Source: Microvirga sp. VF16
GTDB taxonomy: Bacteria > Pseudomonadota > Alphaproteobacteria > Rhizobiales > Beijerinckiaceae
Length of the DNA: 64,000 nt
Assembly: GCF_016864375.1 (NCBI RefSeq)
Contig: NZ_CP069356.1
Location: 310,001 to 374,000, forward strand
Reading direction: 5' to 3'
Each line of letters opens with the position of its first letter. Positions within the stretch are counted from its first letter, which is position 1. Under the pieces are notes generated by a model that worked only from the letters and a program-made list of their open reading frames with translations, did not search any database and was not told the origin of the DNA. Positions 9,758-15,501 of the stretch are shown here, piece by piece. A program made the translations under genes and the position numbers.

Positions 9758-10357
9758 GGCTGTCGAGGCAAGCCGGCCGGTTCTGTCGCAAATCCGGAAC
9801 AGGGACGAGAAAGCAGCAGGTGCACCGTACTGCCCTTATGCGGCGAGCAGGTGAAACTGCTCCGCAAGCGACAGCTGCTGAAAGTAGACATATTTCGCTT
9901 GCTGTTTACGCAGCATATGAACCAACTCGATGCCACCCAGGACCACGCGGGCGCAGTCAGCGGACTTGAAACCGAGCAGCGGTCGCACGCGGCACTTGGC
10001 GGCGCGGCGATCCTGCTCGATACGGTTATTGAGGTATTGACTCTGCCGGATCCTGATCGGCTTGAGCCTGCGTCTTGAACGGTCCTGCAGCCGGCTCTCG
10101 GCATCACACGACAGGATGGCTTCCCGATTGGTCTGGCTGCCGTCGATGACGATCCTCTCGGGCCGGCCGTGCCGGTTGAGGGCCTTGCGCAGAAACCGGT
10201 TGGCGGCAATGAGGTCCCGTCGTTCGCTGAACCAGAACTCAACCGTGTCGCCGTTGCTGTCGATAGCCCGGTAAAGATACAATGGGGTGGACGCCCCTCC
10301 GGCAGCGCCTAGCTGCCAAGGTTGCCACATCCGCAACCACCACCAAGAGGCCCGTCC

Positions 10358-11416
10358 ATGCAGACCCTTGATATCATCGGCATCGATTTAGCGAAGAATG
10401 TCTTTCAGCTCCATGGCGCACGCAAAACTGGCGCTGTGCTCTTTCAGAAGAAGCTGTCCCGAGGCAAGCTGCTGTCGTTTCTTGCCACCCAGCGCCAATG
10501 CACTGTCGCGATGGAAGCCTGTGCCAGCGCTCATTACTGGGGACGCCAGATCAGCACCTTGGGCCATACAGTGAGACTGATCGCCCCCAACTATGTGAAG
10601 CCATTCGTCAAACGGCAGAAGAATGACGCCGCCGATGCCCAAGCCATCTGTGAAGCCGCTCAGCGGCCGACCATGCGCTTTGTTGCGGTCAAGAGTGAGG
10701 AGAAGCAGGCCTCCTCCATGGTGTTCAAGGCCAGAGATCTGCTGATGCGCCAAAGAACCCAGATCATCAATGCCCTGCGCGGACATCTCACCGAATTCGG
10801 CATTATCGCACCCCAAGGAACGAGACACGTTCACACGCTCGTCACCGCGGTTGACGATCCGGCGAATGGCCTTCCTGAGGTGGCGCGATCCGTCTGCCGG
10901 ATGCTCATCACGGCCTTAAGTAAGTTCAACCAGAAGATCGGTGGGTTGGACCGGGAGATCGCGCAGCGGGCGCGGCAGGACGACGAGATCCGACGCCTGA
11001 TGACGATTCCGGGTGTTGGTCCGGTCACGGCAACAGCTCTGGAGGCCTTGGCTCCGGCGGCCGAGACTTTCGACAAGGGGCGGGATTTCGCAGCCTGGAT
11101 GGGGCTCACACCCAGGCAGAACTCGTCTGGCGGGAAGCATCGATTAGGCAAGACATCGAAAATGGGACAACGCGACCTGCGTCGCCTGCTCATCATCGGT
11201 GCCACGGCAGTTGTCCGATGGGCGGCCAGACATGGCACGGCTCCGCACTCCTGGCTGGGACGGATGCTGCGCCGCAAACCGCCGATGCTGATTGCGGTCG
11301 CCCTGGCCAATAAGATGGCGCGGATTGCCTGGGCGCTGATGGCCCGGGAGGAGTTTACCGAGCTTCGGGAGCTGTCGTGTCGGCAGTATAACCCGAGGAA
11401 CTGCCGGAGGATGTGA
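10358..11416 (+). CDS. IS110-family (IS1111-type) transposase
   Basis: This 352-residue RNA-guided-type recombinase of the IS110 family shows its RuvC-like DEDD residues: Asp in IGIDLAKNVFQLHG, Glu in VAMEACASAHYWG, and two Asp in KNDAADAQAICEA. The C-terminal Tnp_20 domain has MTIPGVGPVTATALEALA and the GLTPRQNSSGGKHRLGKTSKMG segment with the proposed catalytic serine. ATG 10358 is taken because upstream codons overlap the subterminal repeat. It is full length with no frameshift, unlike the two other IS110 genes nearby (13187-13895, 14291-15163). Confidence 0.93.
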   Translation: MQTLDIIGIDLAKNVFQLHGARKTGAVLFQKKLSRGKLLSFLATQRQCTVAMEACASAHYWGRQISTLGHTVRLIAPNYVKPFVKRQKNDAADAQAICEAAQRPTMRFVAVKSEEKQASSMVFKARDLLMRQRTQIINALRGHLTEFGIIAPQGTRHVHTLVTAVDDPANGLPEVARSVCRMLITALSKFNQKIGGLDREIAQRARQDDEIRRLMTIPGVGPVTATALEALAPAAETFDKGRDFAAWMGLTPRQNSSGGKHRLGKTSKMGQRDLRRLLIIGATAVVRWAARHGTAPHSWLGRMLRRKPPMLIAVALANKMARIAWALMAREEFTELRELSCRQYNPRNCRRM

Positions 11417-11455
11417 GAAGGTCGAACAGAGATTTATGGGAAATCGGTGGGTCGA

Positions 11456-11595
11456 ACGGGATCAGAAGAACCAGTCGCTGGATGGGCGCTTCGAGCGCGC
11501 AGATACACGTTGGATCTGATCTGCGGACTTCCATAAGGGCCTGCGGCGTTTGGATTGCCGCTTCGAGAGGCCGGACACACGTCAGCACCCGATCG
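11456..11595 (+). ncRNA. Candidate bridge/seeker RNA of the IS1111-type element
   Basis: This lies in the non-coding right end, where IS1111-type elements are known to encode their guide RNA. A first stem-loop pairs GATCAGA 11460-11466 with TCTGATC 11515-11521 and CCA 11471-11473 with TGG 11511-11513. Its internal loop holds GCTGGATG (11477-11484) and AGATACA (11501-11507) on either side of a GCGCT-TCG-AGCGC hairpin. These two segments match the two sides of the element's own insertion site. A second stem-loop (about 11526-11583) contains GCGGC/GCCGC and GGCCT/AGGCC stems and ends AGGCCGG-ACACAC, resembling the element's right tip. RNA boundaries and expression are inferred. Confidence 0.6.
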
Positions 11596-11916
11596 TAGAC
11601 CCAAGATCACACGTTATGATTTCTCTTGCATTCAACGGGGCGTCCACACACATCCAGCATCCTCTGACCTTGATGTAGGTTTCATCGATATGCCAGTTCC
11701 GGCTGACGGCTCGTTTCCAGAGGTTGAAGCGGTCGAGCAGTTCGAGTGAGTAACGAACCACCCAGCGCACGACTGTGGCATGGTCGACGGAGATGCCGCG
11801 CTCCGCCATCATCTCCTCGAGGTTGCGCAGACTGAGGCTGTAAGCCAGGTACCACCGGACACAGAGCAGGATGACTGACCGATCAAATTGCCTGCCCTTG
11901 AACATTATGCCTCACT

Positions 11917-11965
11917 CTCTTTCTTTCCTAGCGCAGGCCATAGCCCTGCGCTAGGAAAGAAAGAG
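11917..11965. repeat. 21-bp perfect hairpin in IS6 leader
   Basis: Two 21-bp arms (11917-11937, 11945-11965) are perfect complements around a 7-nt loop. They fill the space between the IS6 right inverted repeat (11966-11978) and the transposase start (11905). On the minus strand the proximal arm contains a purine-rich AGGAAAGAAAGAG stretch just ahead of the TGAGG ribosome site. The hairpin could therefore limit translation from transcripts entering from outside the element. Confidence 0.75.
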
Positions 11966-12132
11966 TTGCGACAGATCCGTTTAAGGTCGTTGTAGTGGCG
12001 GCTACCCAGCGATGTCCTGGAGGTAGCTGTCTGCAAAGTCCGTCTCGATCTCGATCCAAAGCGGTGAGTGATCCGACATCTGACTTTGGTGCGCAATTCA
12101 GAGGTAGACCGCTCCCGTGCCTGCGGCGGGGC

Positions 12133-13101
12133 TCAGGTGATGCACTGTGATACCGGCATGCCGAGGCGGGTCATGATGTTGATGACCTTGCAGCCGGCCG
12201 CGGCCTCAGCCTTTTGCGTCGGCAGCGTCCGGGCGTGGAGGCGCCGCCCGATCACGGTCTTGTAGCGCATCATCGCCACCTCGCCCAATGACCGACGGCC
12301 GTAGTTAATCGCCTTTTGCCAGCCGAGCCGACCACGCTCTTCGATCATCCGGAGGTGCCGATCCCGCGGCGTAGGCGTCGTCTCGGCGGTGCCGCTCGGC
12401 ACTGCCGTTGATCGCGGTGGGATGATCACAGCGGCGGCAGGGTCCCGCGCGGCGATGGTGCGGTAGACGGGATCGCCATCGTACGCACCATCGGCTGTGA
12501 CCGAAGCGATCGGGCCTGAGATCTGATCAAGCAGCGGTCCGACCTGTGAGGCATCGCCGTCTTCCGTGGTGGTCAGCTCTGAAGCAAGGATCTCGCCGGA
12601 TTCGGGATCAACAGCAAGGTGCAACTTGCGCCAGGTTCGGCGCCCCTTGCCGCCATGCTTGTCGCGCTGCCATTCGCCGGCCCCGAACACCTTCAGGCCG
12701 GTGGAGTCGATCACCACATTCACTGGAGTGGTTGCTGTTCTCACCGCCTTGGCGACGGTCAGGTCGACGCTGCGACGCGAGAAGGTGGTGTGATCCGGAA
12801 CCGGGAGGGCCAAGCCGAGCAGACGCAGGATCGAGGCCAGCATGCCTTCGGTCTGGCGCCAGGGCCGTCCAAAAGCCAGCCGCAGCATCAGACCCGTTTC
12901 GACGACCATCTCGGAGTATCGCTGTGGTCGACCACGCCGGCCCGTGGTTGCCGGCGTCCATGCCTCAAGCGCCTCAGCCGTCACCCACACCGTCAGGTCG
13001 CCGCGCCGACGCAGGGCGGCATCGTAGTCGCGCCAATTCTTCACGCGGCAGCGGGCCTTCGGGATTCTGTGGCGGCGCTCTTGATTGACCTTGTAAGGCA
13101 T
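12133..13101 (-). CDS. IS5-family transposase, apparently complete
   Basis: This 322-residue transposase has the DDE triad in VNVVIDSTGLKVFG, TADGAYDGD and RSLGEVAMMRYKTVIG. The N-terminal ~110 residues form the helix-turn-helix region with the DHTTFSRR motif. It has the normal length for this IS5 subgroup and no internal stop. It is related to the truncated copy at 853-1442. Element tips were not resolved; the reading runs from 13101 (MPYKVNQ) to 12133. Confidence 0.88.
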   Translation of the reverse strand: MPYKVNQERRHRIPKARCRVKNWRDYDAALRRRGDLTVWVTAEALEAWTPATTGRRGRPQRYSEMVVETGLMLRLAFGRPWRQTEGMLASILRLLGLALPVPDHTTFSRRSVDLTVAKAVRTATTPVNVVIDSTGLKVFGAGEWQRDKHGGKGRRTWRKLHLAVDPESGEILASELTTTEDGDASQVGPLLDQISGPIASVTADGAYDGDPVYRTIAARDPAAAVIIPPRSTAVPSGTAETTPTPRDRHLRMIEERGRLGWQKAINYGRRSLGEVAMMRYKTVIGRRLHARTLPTQKAEAAAGCKVINIMTRLGMPVSQCIT

Positions 13102-13186
13102 GCAGCTCTCGGATTCCGACGACCGCCTCTATACCTCACCCCGATCTTCGCGCGACACCTCAGGCCGAATTACGCACCAACGTCCC

Positions 13187-13895
13187 CTCATGCTGCACGG
13201 AGCCCGCGATCTCCTGATCGGGCAGCGGACAGCCCTGATCAATGCTCTGCGCGGTCACTTCGCCGAATTGGGCGTCGTGGTGGCGCAAGGCGCTCGCACC
13301 ACGCGCCAACTGATTGCCCTTATCCATGATGACGCCAATCCCGATCTCCCCGTCACAGCTCGGGTCGCACTCCAGCCTCTGGCGGCGATGCTGGTTGAGA
13401 TTGAGGCGCAGATCGCCAAGCTCGACAAGGCCATTCTGGCGGCCCACCGCAGCGATCCGGTGAGCATCAGGCTCGCCACCATTCCCGGCATCGGCCCGAT
13501 TGCGGCCTCTTGTCTCTCGGCCAGCATCCCGGATGCCGGCCTGTTCCAGGGCAGCCGGGAGTTTGCCGCCTATCTCGGCCTCGTGCCGCGGCAGCATTCA
13601 ACCGGCGGCAAGGCGAGGCTCGGCTCCATCTCGAAGATGGGCAACCGGCATCTGCGCAAGCTGCTGGTCGTCGGCGCACACGCGGCGCTCTACAGCATGA
13701 AGCTACAGCATGAAGTCGGGGAAGACCAGGACGGCCCTGGCTGACTGGGCCCGGGCTCTCCTGGCCAAGAAACCGTTCAAGGTCGTCGCTGTCGCCTTGG
13801 CCAACAAGATGGCCCGGATCGCCTGGGCGGTCATGGCCGGGAGCACGGCTTACGAGCCCGGGAGCAAGGGAGCGGCCGCGCCGGCGGCCTCATAG
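13187..13895 (+). pseudogene. IS110-family transposase remnant with a 13-bp duplication frameshift
   Basis: The reading shows the middle and C-terminal parts of an IS110 transposase (GARDLLIGQRTALINALRGH, LATIPGIGPIAASCLS, LVPRQHSTGGKARLGSISKMG). The N-terminal RuvC-like part with the DEDD residues is missing. At 13690-13715 the 13 bases CTACAGCATGAAG occur twice in tandem. Deleting one copy joins ALYSMK to SGKTRTALADWARALLAKKPFKVVAVALANKM-type sequence and restores the frame. The duplication is thus the direct cause of the frameshift. The fragment is dead. Confidence 0.9.
13690..13715 (+). repeat. 13-bp tandem duplication
   Basis: CTACAGCATGAAG is present at 13690-13702 and again at 13703-13715 with no change. 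It shifts the reading frame of the IS110 remnant by one base and looks like a recent slippage or break-repair event. Confidence 0.95.
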
Positions 13896-14113
13896 ACGAC
13901 CAGCTCAAAACCATTCGCCCCTTGGGGCAACCCAGTTGGCACGGTGACGATGAGATGATGTGAAGCCAAGCGGATATGGATCGCCGGAACTGGCAAACCC
14001 GTGGTGTCGTCTTGCGTCAGTCGAGCGCGATAATGTGAGAGGGACCAGCTCCAGCGTAAAACATCAGGGCCCGCGGTCATGTAGCACCGCGTTCAAAGGC
14101 CGGAGACATGACT
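13896..14113 (+). other. IS110-type non-coding end, remnant
   Basis: No protein is supported here. The stretch has a small GCCCC-TT-GGGGC hairpin near 13917. At 14073-14112 it has a segment that copies, in inverted orientation, the guide-RNA-like hairpin of the next element. GCGGTCATGT, a 12-nt variable part, AAAGGCCGGA and ATGAC occur in the same order. It is probably the non-coding right end of an IS110 element cut short by the tip of the element starting at 14114. Confidence 0.55.
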
Positions 14114-14129
14114 TATGTGGACGGCCCCC

Positions 14130-14290
14130 GCCTCGCAAGAAGATTTCGGCATGGTTTGATCGGATCGCTTGCGGTCATATGTCCGGCCTTTCATTGCAGT
14201 CACACATGACCGCTGGCCAAGATGGCGTCCGCTCTGTGAGTTCCCAACAGCACCGCGGCCTCGCCAGACCACAGTCATGTGCGGAGTGTC
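14130..14290 (-). ncRNA. Candidate guide RNA of the second IS1111-type element
   Basis: This is the non-coding right end on the minus strand. An 11-bp stem (14203-14213 with 14171-14181, one G-U pair) closes a 21-nt loop containing AAAGGCCGGA. Directly after AGGCCGG comes ACATATG (14176-14182), whose ACATA copies the element's own right tip (CACATA at 14114-14119). The intact element shows the same arrangement with ACACAC and a CACACA tip. Expression and ends are not known; the host element's transposase is broken. Confidence 0.45.
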
Positions 14291-15163
14291 TCACCGTCTG
14301 GATCGATCGATCACACCATCTGCTCGCTTCCTTGCAAGGTCCGACACCAGCTCAACACCGGCCCGCGTGATCACCCCATGCCGCACCTTGCCGGCGGTGG
14401 AATGATCCTTCGGGGTCAAGCCAAGCCAGGCGGCAAAGTGGCGGGCCGAGCGAAAGGCCTCGGGTGCAGGCGTCTTCATCACCAACATCGCAGCGCCGAT
14501 CGGACCCACCCCAGGAATCCTGGCCAAGCGTCGGCTGATCTCATGGGCGCGGTGCCAAGCCATGAGGCGATCTTCAATCTCCTCCAATCGGGCCTGCAGC
14601 TGCGCATACTCCGTGGCCTGCATCGCAAACAGCTCCCGGGCGAGAGCCGGCAAGGTCTCCTCGGTTTTGACCCGCTCCAGCAGAGGCTCGATCCGGCACA
14701 GCCCCTTAGGGGCAATGAGCCCGAACTCCGCCGCATAGCCGCGGATCACGTTGACCAGCTGGGTGCGCTGCCGGATCAAGCGATCGCGCACGCCCACCAG
14801 CATCAAGGCCGCCTGCTGGTCGGCTGTTTTGACCGGCACGAAGCGCATGGTGGGCCGGCTCATCGCCTCGCAGATCGCCTCGGCATCAGCCGCATCGTTC
14901 TTGCCACGCTTGACGTACGGCTTGGCCAATTGCGGCGCGATCAGCTTCACCTGGTGCCCTAACGACTGCAGAAGGCGCGCCCAATGGTGCGAGCCCCCAC
15001 AGGCTTCAAGGGCAACTACGGTGGGCGGAAGCTTGCCAAAGAAGGTGATCAGATCCTGGCGCCGCAGCTTCTTGCGCAGCACCGGCTCCTCGGCGGCATT
15101 CACGCCGTGCAGTTGGAAGACGTGCTTTGACGTATCCATTCCGATGCGGATAATCTGGTCCAT
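14291..15163 (-). pseudogene. IS110-family transposase, C-terminally truncated
   Basis: It begins at ATG 15163 behind AGGAG (7 nt spacing) and reads the IS110 N-terminus MDQIIRIGMDTSKHVFQLHG. The DEDD residues follow: Asp in IGMDTSK, Glu in VALEACGGSHHW, Asp in KNDAADAEAICEA. It continues to GLTPKDHSTAGKVRHGVITRAG and then changes abruptly at about 14330 into unrelated LVSDLARKRADG sequence before a stop. About 50 C-terminal residues, including the final conserved LANKMAR-type helix, are missing. It is 290 residues long against ~340 expected. Confidence 0.85.
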
Positions 15164-15282
15164 GGACGGTCTCCTGTGACTGAGATCTGCAACGACCTCA
15201 TTCTGGCACAGCGATGCCGTAAGGGGGCCGTCCACTCCAACAGCACCCGCCCCGCTCGGCCCAAACGTCAACAACAATCACA

Positions 15283-15501
15283 TTGCCAAACGGGCGCCAT
15301 CCAGACAGGACAGCACCGCGGATCGAGTGGACGGAAACAGGGGTGCCGGTGCTCTCGCTCGCGCCGCGGCGCAGCGGCTTCGGGACCGAGCTGCTGACGC
15401 AGACGGTGCCGTACCAGCTCAGGGGAACAACGACGCTGACGTTCAAACCCGGCGGGCTGCAATGCACCATTGAGCTCCCGGCCAAGGAGCTGTTGCAATA
15501 G
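15283..15501 (+). pseudogene. HWE-type sensor histidine kinase, C-terminal remnant
   Basis: From about 15318 the frame reads RIEWTETGVPV, then RRSGFGTELLTQTVPYQLRG, then FKPGGLQCTIELP. This is the end of the ATPase domain of HWE/HisKA_2 kinases (WxE motif, GFG-L-T loop and CTI-L-P terminal strand). Everything upstream, including PAS domains, phospho-acceptor helix and N-box, has been replaced by the IS110 element ending at 15242. It is most likely a dead tail of a former chromosomal sensor kinase gene. Confidence 0.7.

Follow-up and report, generated by a model that had tools for sequence, protein, structure and literature searches.

An IS1111-group insertion sequence of Microvirga whose right-end RNA very probably reads both the target and the element's own end

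Results

An IS1111-group element in an IS6 transposase gene

The window, that is the whole stretch of DNA analysed here, covers 64,000 nt of Microvirga sp. VF16 (assembly GCF_016864375.1, contig NZ_CP069356.1, positions 310,001-374,000, forward strand). Coordinates count from its first base. In this window, an IS1111-group element splits a gene for an IS6-family transposase carried by the minus strand. The features of the element are:

10280-11650, plus strand: complete insertion sequence of the IS1111 group (IS110 superfamily), 1371 bp, delimited from inverted repeats, empty-site comparison and Pfam/NCBIfam matches
10280-10281, plus strand: core dinucleotide CA at the left end; a second copy, 11651-11652, lies in the right flank
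10287-10297, plus strand: left subterminal inverted repeat, GTGGACGCCCC
10358-11416, plus strand: DEDD transposase gene, open, 352 aa, identified with Pfam and NCBIfam
11637-11647, plus strand: right subterminal inverted repeat, GGGGCGTCCAC

The transposase matches Pfam DEDD_Tnp_IS110 and Transposase_20, and NCBIfam NF033542 ('IS110 family RNA-guided transposase'). Its translation contains GLTPRQNSSG, which fits the IS1111-group motif GL-P----SG, and its length is just above the ca 330-350 aa published for the group. IS1111 elements have subterminal inverted repeats of 11-13 bp with extensions of 7 bp on the left and 3 bp on the right (PMC11187229). In the window element, the repeats are perfect over 11/11 bp, the extensions are 7 and 3 bp, and 234 bp of non-coding DNA follow the stop codon. 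By its transposase, its repeats with 7/3 extensions and its long downstream non-coding region, the element is a member of the IS1111 group.

The initial annotation considered the insertion point exact, because deletion of 10280-11650 restores the IS6 frame. This is confirmed. Joining the flanks by script gives one open frame, reading GCWMYLYR, and five uninterrupted IS6 copies from the same genome can be aligned through the junction and lack the insert; this genome is listed with 17% contamination, so that 'same genome' may span more than one strain. One intact copy, L035, is an IS6 element according to NCBIfam NF033587 (E 1.1e-71). The core CA is found at the empty site in three of the five copies (CCGGTAAAGGTA-CA-TCCAGC, CCGGTAGAGATA-CA-TCCACC and CCGGTATAAGTA-CA-TCCAGC), while the remaining two have TT and AC. 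Compared with these uninterrupted copies, the window element shows no target duplication beyond the shared core. The joined frame and the empty-site alignments indicate that the earlier calls of the ends, shared CA core included, were right. The element is present as a single copy in its own genome. Beside the start of the IS6 gene lies a long palindrome (11906-11975) with two weak Rfam matches to mir-3146, a human microRNA family. This palindrome is outside the element, and the matches, probably false, were taken as chance.

Homologous elements

We assembled 178 homologous loci from several sources: the genome of the window element itself; genomes sampled across its genus, family and order; GTDB contigs, of which the best 80 out of 570 were taken; IMG/VR (23 relatives, the best at 64% amino acid identity); and plasmids (20 loci, a choice from 701 plus 111 matching records). 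A DNA search scoring two candidates per genome revealed no further close copies in 397 sampled genomes each of the family and the order. Element ends were called by position-weight matrices blind to the core and to the flanks. This procedure replaced a first scheme requiring equal cores, which had given 73 elements, because the equal-core requirement was circular. The final set comprises 115 distinct elements; 41 loci were dropped for want of a confident end, 9 as duplicates, 9 as truncated by the edge of the available sequence and 4 because their flanks were too short. The left-end core equals the right-flank core in 103 elements. All four core copies, in the left end, the target, the target guide and the donor guide, are identical in 100 of the 115.

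A predicted two-loop RNA at the right end

The non-coding right end contains the following features:

11444-11596, plus strand: predicted two-loop seek/bridge RNA, about 150 nt, with inferred boundaries; covariance model R1 matches 11444-11589
11459-11466, plus strand: 5' arm of stem P2 (partner 11515-11522), which closes the target loop; two-sided changes in 7/8 pairs
11477-11484, plus strand: right target guide GCTGGATG, complement of CA-TCCAGC
11486-11498, plus strand: hairpin P3 between the target guides; two-sided changes in 4/4 counted pairs
11501-11507, plus strand: left target guide AGATACA, identical to left flank AGATA plus core CA
11530-11534, plus strand: TCCAT, candidate right donor guide, complementary to ATGG of the left end
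11538-11572, plus strand: donor-loop hairpins P5 (GGCC 11538-11541/11569-11572) and P6 (GCGGC 11543-11547/11557-11561)
11575-11581, plus strand: left donor guide ACACACG, which repeats ACACA of the own right end and reads the core as CG (G.T wobble with CA)

RNAalifold, applied to 73 non-redundant elements, places two loops inside a weak outer stem. In the consensus target loop, P2 closes the right guide, P3 and the left guide. The second multi-loop consists of CCAT, hairpins P5 and P6, and the donor guide. Covariation was counted in alignment A2, whose 44 sequences are too short for the outer stem, the 5' arm of which folds there as a small local hairpin. The 26 pairs of six helices are 96.5% paired, against 24-41% when partners are slid. 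Changes on both sides occur in 17 of these 26 pairs, a number reached by 0/500 shuffles. The homologous right ends thus share a conserved, covarying structure. P5 is almost invariant, so covariation neither supports nor contradicts it. When the window sequence is folded alone at minimum energy, P2 and P3 are kept and the consensus donor loop is not formed. No Rfam family matches over the window element at E up to 1.

The guides, the hairpin GCGCT-TCG-AGCGC and the closing stem GATCAGA/TCTGATC (11460-11466/11515-11521) of the initial annotation are all found in the sequence at the positions it gave. Its RNA interval, 11456-11595, has to be redrawn: it contains the guides as described, but the RNA is larger (about 11444-11596) and the second loop had been missed.

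Target guides follow the flanks

In the window element, both target guides are exact (7/7 on the left, 8/8 on the right), and the top-strand complement lies 5' of the bottom-strand match. Homologues have the same order at the same fixed positions. Guides were scored across the 115 elements at the guide positions of the window element, with the same tolerance, up to 2 nt of shift, for control targets as for real ones. The left guide, five flank bases plus two core bases, matches its own target 7/7 in 55 elements and 6/7 in 42 (at least 6/7 in 97). In the other 18, it reaches 5/7 in 16 and less in 2 (worst 3/7). The right guide reaches 8/8 in 36 elements and 7/8 in 43 (at least 7/8 in 79), then 6/8 in 22 and 5/8 or fewer in 14 (worst 3/8). 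Exact matches to the different targets of other elements amount to 0.38% for left and 0.32% for right guides. Without any shift, 54 of the 115 left guides are exact. In the 73 non-redundant elements, 39 left guides are exact; 5000 target shuffles averaged 1.1 and never gave more than 8. The complementarity between guides and flanks thus extends to homologues.

The register of the right guide shifts by 1-2 nt between clades. For this reason, fixed alignment columns gave no clean covariation signal for it in the scan described below; when it was aligned on a predicted hairpin instead, no single register emerged (best mean 3.57 of 8), and only the shift-tolerant score was used. Among six distant elements (L184-L189, four with IS names), the automatic end caller failed or was doubtful on L184, L186, L187 and L189. 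Both target guides are visible in L188, and the right one in L185.

Co-changes were searched for on a tree built with FastTree from the transposase region. The 217 non-coding columns and 64 flank, core or end positions form 13,888 pairs; those with few changes were left unscored but counted in the Bonferroni correction. The p-values, from a hypergeometric model on Fitch reconstructions, are rough. In each of the nine best pairs, a guide position is linked to its counterpart in the flank, end or core, nearly always by the same base change. They involve LF-1, LF-3, LF-4, RE-2, RE-4 and core base 1 with either guide. The top pair, LF-3 with 11503, has 30 shared branches out of 38 and 36, 29 of them with the same change (p = 5e-24). 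The tenth, RF+3 with 11497, is a non-guide pair that also passes the Bonferroni line (p = 3.6e-7). Co-change is weak at LF-2 (p 4e-3), LF-5 (p 4e-3) and target core base 2 (p 5e-2), and the scan found none with the RNA at LF-6 to LF-8. These weak and null positions delimit a left guide of about five bases plus the core. Family, 3' non-coding position, guide order and the co-evolution of guides and flanks in homologues together support the original reading of this region as a bridge or seeker RNA of the IS110/IS1111 type.

Close relatives illustrate the same behaviour. Among relatives complete at both ends, L037 is the closest (87% at the DNA level, from another genome of this genus). It interrupts an IS6 gene at the same codons, with AAAGGTA-CA as left flank and AGGTACA as left guide: flank and guide differ from those of the window element at the same base. 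Judging from the two sequences, L037 is a natural reprogramming of the guide together with the flank. Its right guide, GTTGGATG, has one base changed while the flank is unchanged (7/8). L038 (88%) occupies the same IS6 position and lacks its right end; in L039 (89% over the part compared), the left end falls outside the available sequence. Identical guides at unrelated sites were not seen among close copies, of which only L037 has both flanks and both guides. The proposal that the target is a conserved IS6 transposase motif holds for this lineage, but not for the whole family.

Other targets were noted in passing. The rhizobial relatives L164, L169, L174 and L177 have left guides near GTAGC-CG; genes on both sides of L169 carry an IS66 transposase annotation, and L174 (core CG, target CA) shows a CG/CA wobble as in the window element. 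In L039:1501-3644, the right inverted repeat appears by eye to be interrupted (GGGG^CGTC) by a further IS110-type element. From this case, the ends of window-type elements may also be targets.

A donor guide follows the element's own end

The left donor guide repeats the five terminal bases of the element's right end, followed by the core. This repeat is exact in 110 of the 115 elements, over 12 end types, and the five exceptions (L001, which is the window element, L037, L096, L101 and L182) are all 6/7. In the window element and L037, the guide ends with CG where the core is CA, a combination that G.T pairing would permit. Against the different ends of other elements, an exact match is seen in 0.58%; 6/7 is reached by 54%, because element ends are alike. 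On the tree, 20 of 21 end or core changes coincide with a mirrored change in the RNA on their branch (RE-2 8/8, RE-4 5/5, left-end core base 1 6/6, core base 2 1/2). RE-1, RE-3 and RE-5 have no changes. RE-6 and RE-7, outside the guide, have 3 changes and 1 change, none mirrored. These co-changes favour donor reading by the IS1111 RNA. Judged by co-evolution for the guide and by the consensus structure for the loop, a separate donor-binding loop with a left donor guide that includes the core is present.

The possible right donor guide would pair its CCAT (11531-11534) with left-end ATGG. However, CCAT hardly varies and is retained in elements with TTGG, TAGG or GTGG at the left end. The in-register pair LE+7 with 11530 ranks 17th, with 5 shared branches of which 3 are complementary (p = 7e-5, non-significant after correction). 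In L002 and L181, TCAT pairs with left-end ATGA.

In L101, the left-end core is TG, and the target core, the target guide and the donor guide all have CG; the left end looks freshly changed. The donor-guide repeat was also read by eye in the distant elements L184, L185 and L188.

Proposed mechanism and alternative explanations

We consider it very probable that the window element is an RNA-guided insertion sequence of the IS1111 group, with a right-end RNA of ca 150 nt carrying a target-reading and a donor-reading loop, and a recombinase that joins the partners at the core. According to this model, a non-coding RNA of about 150 nt would be transcribed from the right end and fold into two loops. 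In the target loop, GCTGGATG would pair with the top strand of the core and right side, and AGATACA with the bottom strand of the left side and core. In the donor loop, ACACACG would pair with the bottom strand of the own right end and core. Held by these pairings in the complex, the circularised element and the target would be united at their shared core by the DEDD recombinase, whose catalysis would join them without added bases. The guides now present would then be those that made this insertion.

IS110 and IS1111 elements are associated with a circular intermediate carrying a promoter at its junction. Joining the right end of the window element to its left end would create TTGCAT-17 bp-CACAAT, a pair of motifs that resembles a promoter and spans the core. 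Within the last 30 bases, the first TTG is at this offset in 87 of the 115 elements.

An alternative account would keep target reading only: the active form would be a short seekRNA, ACACACG a processing or protein-binding motif, and the ends would be recognised via the subterminal inverted repeats. It draws on ISEc11, for which an 82-nt seekRNA is sufficient and outperforms the long form (42% vs about 15%), the binding of the ends being left unexplained by its authors (PMC11187229). It also draws on the mixed evidence for a right donor guide. A protein motif, however, need not copy the core, yet ACACACG follows the right end and core in all but one of the 21 tree changes, and the repeat is exact in nearly every element. 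In addition, the donor guide is located in the 3' loop, which a long RNA of 145-170 nt would include. We therefore hold the target-only account to be unlikely.

Two further accounts question the guides themselves. Flank sequences could have been captured after insertion, so that the guide-like stretches record past sites rather than direct insertion. Capture would equally yield guide-flank matches, with flanks and guides changing together on the tree. But two guide halves of opposite sense around a hairpin (with starts 24 nt apart in the window element) are unlike a simple capture, and the 12 copies of a second IS1111 family described below have one guide pair and one target motif. Moreover, changing the guide and the donor flank of ISEc11 changed its target (PMC11187229). 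Capture is thus highly improbable. Matches arising by chance in a non-coding end and picked after the fact would be a concern for a single element, since the guides are short and the odds in one case modest. With fixed positions in 115 elements and 39 exact left guides out of 73 where shuffles never exceeded 8, the homologue scoring, the tree scan and the shuffles already refute this account, to which we give practically no weight.

A second IS1111 family inside IS1111 RNA genes

The region 13100-15320 of the window holds one pair of a struck and a striking IS1111 element:

13970-14113, plus strand: 5' part of the RNA gene of another IS1111 element, cut at the donor guide
14114-15242, minus strand: L019-type IS1111 copy with 272 bp missing inside, inserted in the struck RNA gene, whose other half starts at 15243

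Covariance model R1 gave 45 matches in the own genome, including 11 tail-to-tail pairs 49 nt apart. Eleven stretches hold 12 copies of a 1404-bp IS1111 element, 99.9-100% identical, one of them with the 272 bp missing; the loci concerned are the window region and L220-L230. This element has 47% amino acid identity to that of the window. Eleven of the 12 copies interrupt another IS1111 RNA gene immediately after its donor guide, with one half of that gene on either side; the twelfth is elsewhere, at CTGC-AG-CCATGT. In the homologue sample, 6 of the 7 distinct copies have flanks that, once joined, fit the RNA profile, versus 0 of the 108 other elements. The struck elements are of at least five kinds, by eye. 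The empty site is seen as GACATGACT-GCACCC in L009, an uninterrupted relative of the struck element of the window with 89% identity over 931 bp. Four copies lie in identical struck elements at four loci, and among six genome matches to the struck element none of at least 90% is unstruck; either a composite moves or all struck elements were hit. Some halves are hybrid, so that the 11 cases are not 11 independent events.

The guides of the second family, GGTGCTG and ACATGACT, fit targets NTGC-RG-YCATGT, all 12 copies having this one guide pair. The target core is AG or GG where the element core (L019) is TG. By this mismatch, second-family copies make up 7 of the 12 core exceptions in the sample. 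The U of the right guide of L019 could read A or G, which suggests that core identity on both bases is not strict. Partial relatives in four other genomes (L232, L233, L236, L240 and L248; 89-95%) are located in such RNA genes, as read by eye with one side readable. Eight relatives at 77-80% with the right end present all have other guides and other right flanks. Their right guides fit these flanks 8/8 in L234, L235, L237, L242 and L247 and 7/8 in L238 and L239; L243 is a misfit.

The genome contains 19 free RTGC-RG-YCATGT sites, 6 in R1 matches and 13 elsewhere, whereas the occupied sites are 11 in RNA genes and 0 elsewhere. A Fisher test of occupied versus free sites (p 0.002) was set aside because the twelfth site, CTGC-AG-CCATGT, misfits RTGCRGYCATGT and because the copies are non-independent. 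The bias could be explained by selection against hits in other genes together with this non-independence.

The second element is apparently aimed at the guide-RNA genes of its relatives. A donor guide obliged to copy the element's own end would not drift freely, and a second IS1111 lineage could exploit this. The second family itself has a diverged right end, ACATA, and a diverged donor guide, ACATATG. An insertion would harm the struck element, and the ACATATG guide would let the second family spare itself. That reading donor and target makes IS1111 RNAs vulnerable, and that the second lineage hunts guide-RNA genes while being immune through the divergence of its ends, is a view towards which we lean slightly.

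Discussion

The target part of the RNA is the published IS1111 seekRNA, and its donor part corresponds to the bridge-RNA concept of PMC11208160. As in the IS1111 seekRNAs of ISEc11, ISPa11, ISKpn4 and ISPst6 (PMC11187229), the RNA is encoded in the 3' non-coding region of an element having inverted repeats with 7/3 extensions, no target duplication is made, the guide order is the same (top-strand complement before bottom-strand match; Siddiquee et al. 2024), and relatives are naturally redirected. IS1111 seekRNAs are further characterised by co-purification with the transposase and by being required for movement. In contrast with those cases, the element is another one and its target is an IS6 transposase motif. 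The donor guide, seen here via co-evolution, also sets it apart from the seekRNAs as that source describes them. In size, the window RNA would fit the 'long seekRNA' of 145-170 nt, and its target loop alone the short form of 70-100 nt (PMC11187229).

With the IS621/IS110 bridge RNA (PMC11208160), the RNA shares two loops, one for the target and one for the donor, and a core in each. It differs in being located at the right end, in the reversed order of its guides and in the hairpins inside its loops. For many IS1111 members, Durrant et al. 2024 placed predicted donor nucleotides in a multi-loop, and they displayed six inspected elements of both groups (PMC11208160). Here, donor reading rests on changes mapped on a tree of 115 IS1111 elements. 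Within the open-access literature searched, preprints excluded, we found no study testing whether donor guides co-vary with element ends among IS1111 members.

An element specialised on other mobile DNA has known counterparts. IS4321 and IS5075, of the IS1111 group, reportedly reside in the inverted repeats of Tn21-family transposons. Their target is a transposon end, unlike that of the window element, and amino acid identity is 37-38%. By eye, their non-coding ends (L184 and L185) contain GGATAGATT, which equals their own right end ATAGA plus TT and suggests donor guides in this far branch as well.

The founding papers, in their parts on IS1111 RNAs, leave the recognition of element ends open. 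In one, the 82-nt RNA suffices for ISEc11, which questions the need for a donor loop, and end recognition is stated to be unknown (Siddiquee et al. 2024; PMC11187229); in the other, donor loops are predicted (PMC11208160). The co-changes in 115 elements are evidence for donor reading, and they name the bases: 11575-11581 against RE-5 to core. The target and donor addresses of IS1111 elements would be largely readable from sequence with a simple recipe. The neighbouring family points to competition among RNA-guided elements, which would attack one another's guide genes; such a relation would be unusual for insertion sequences.
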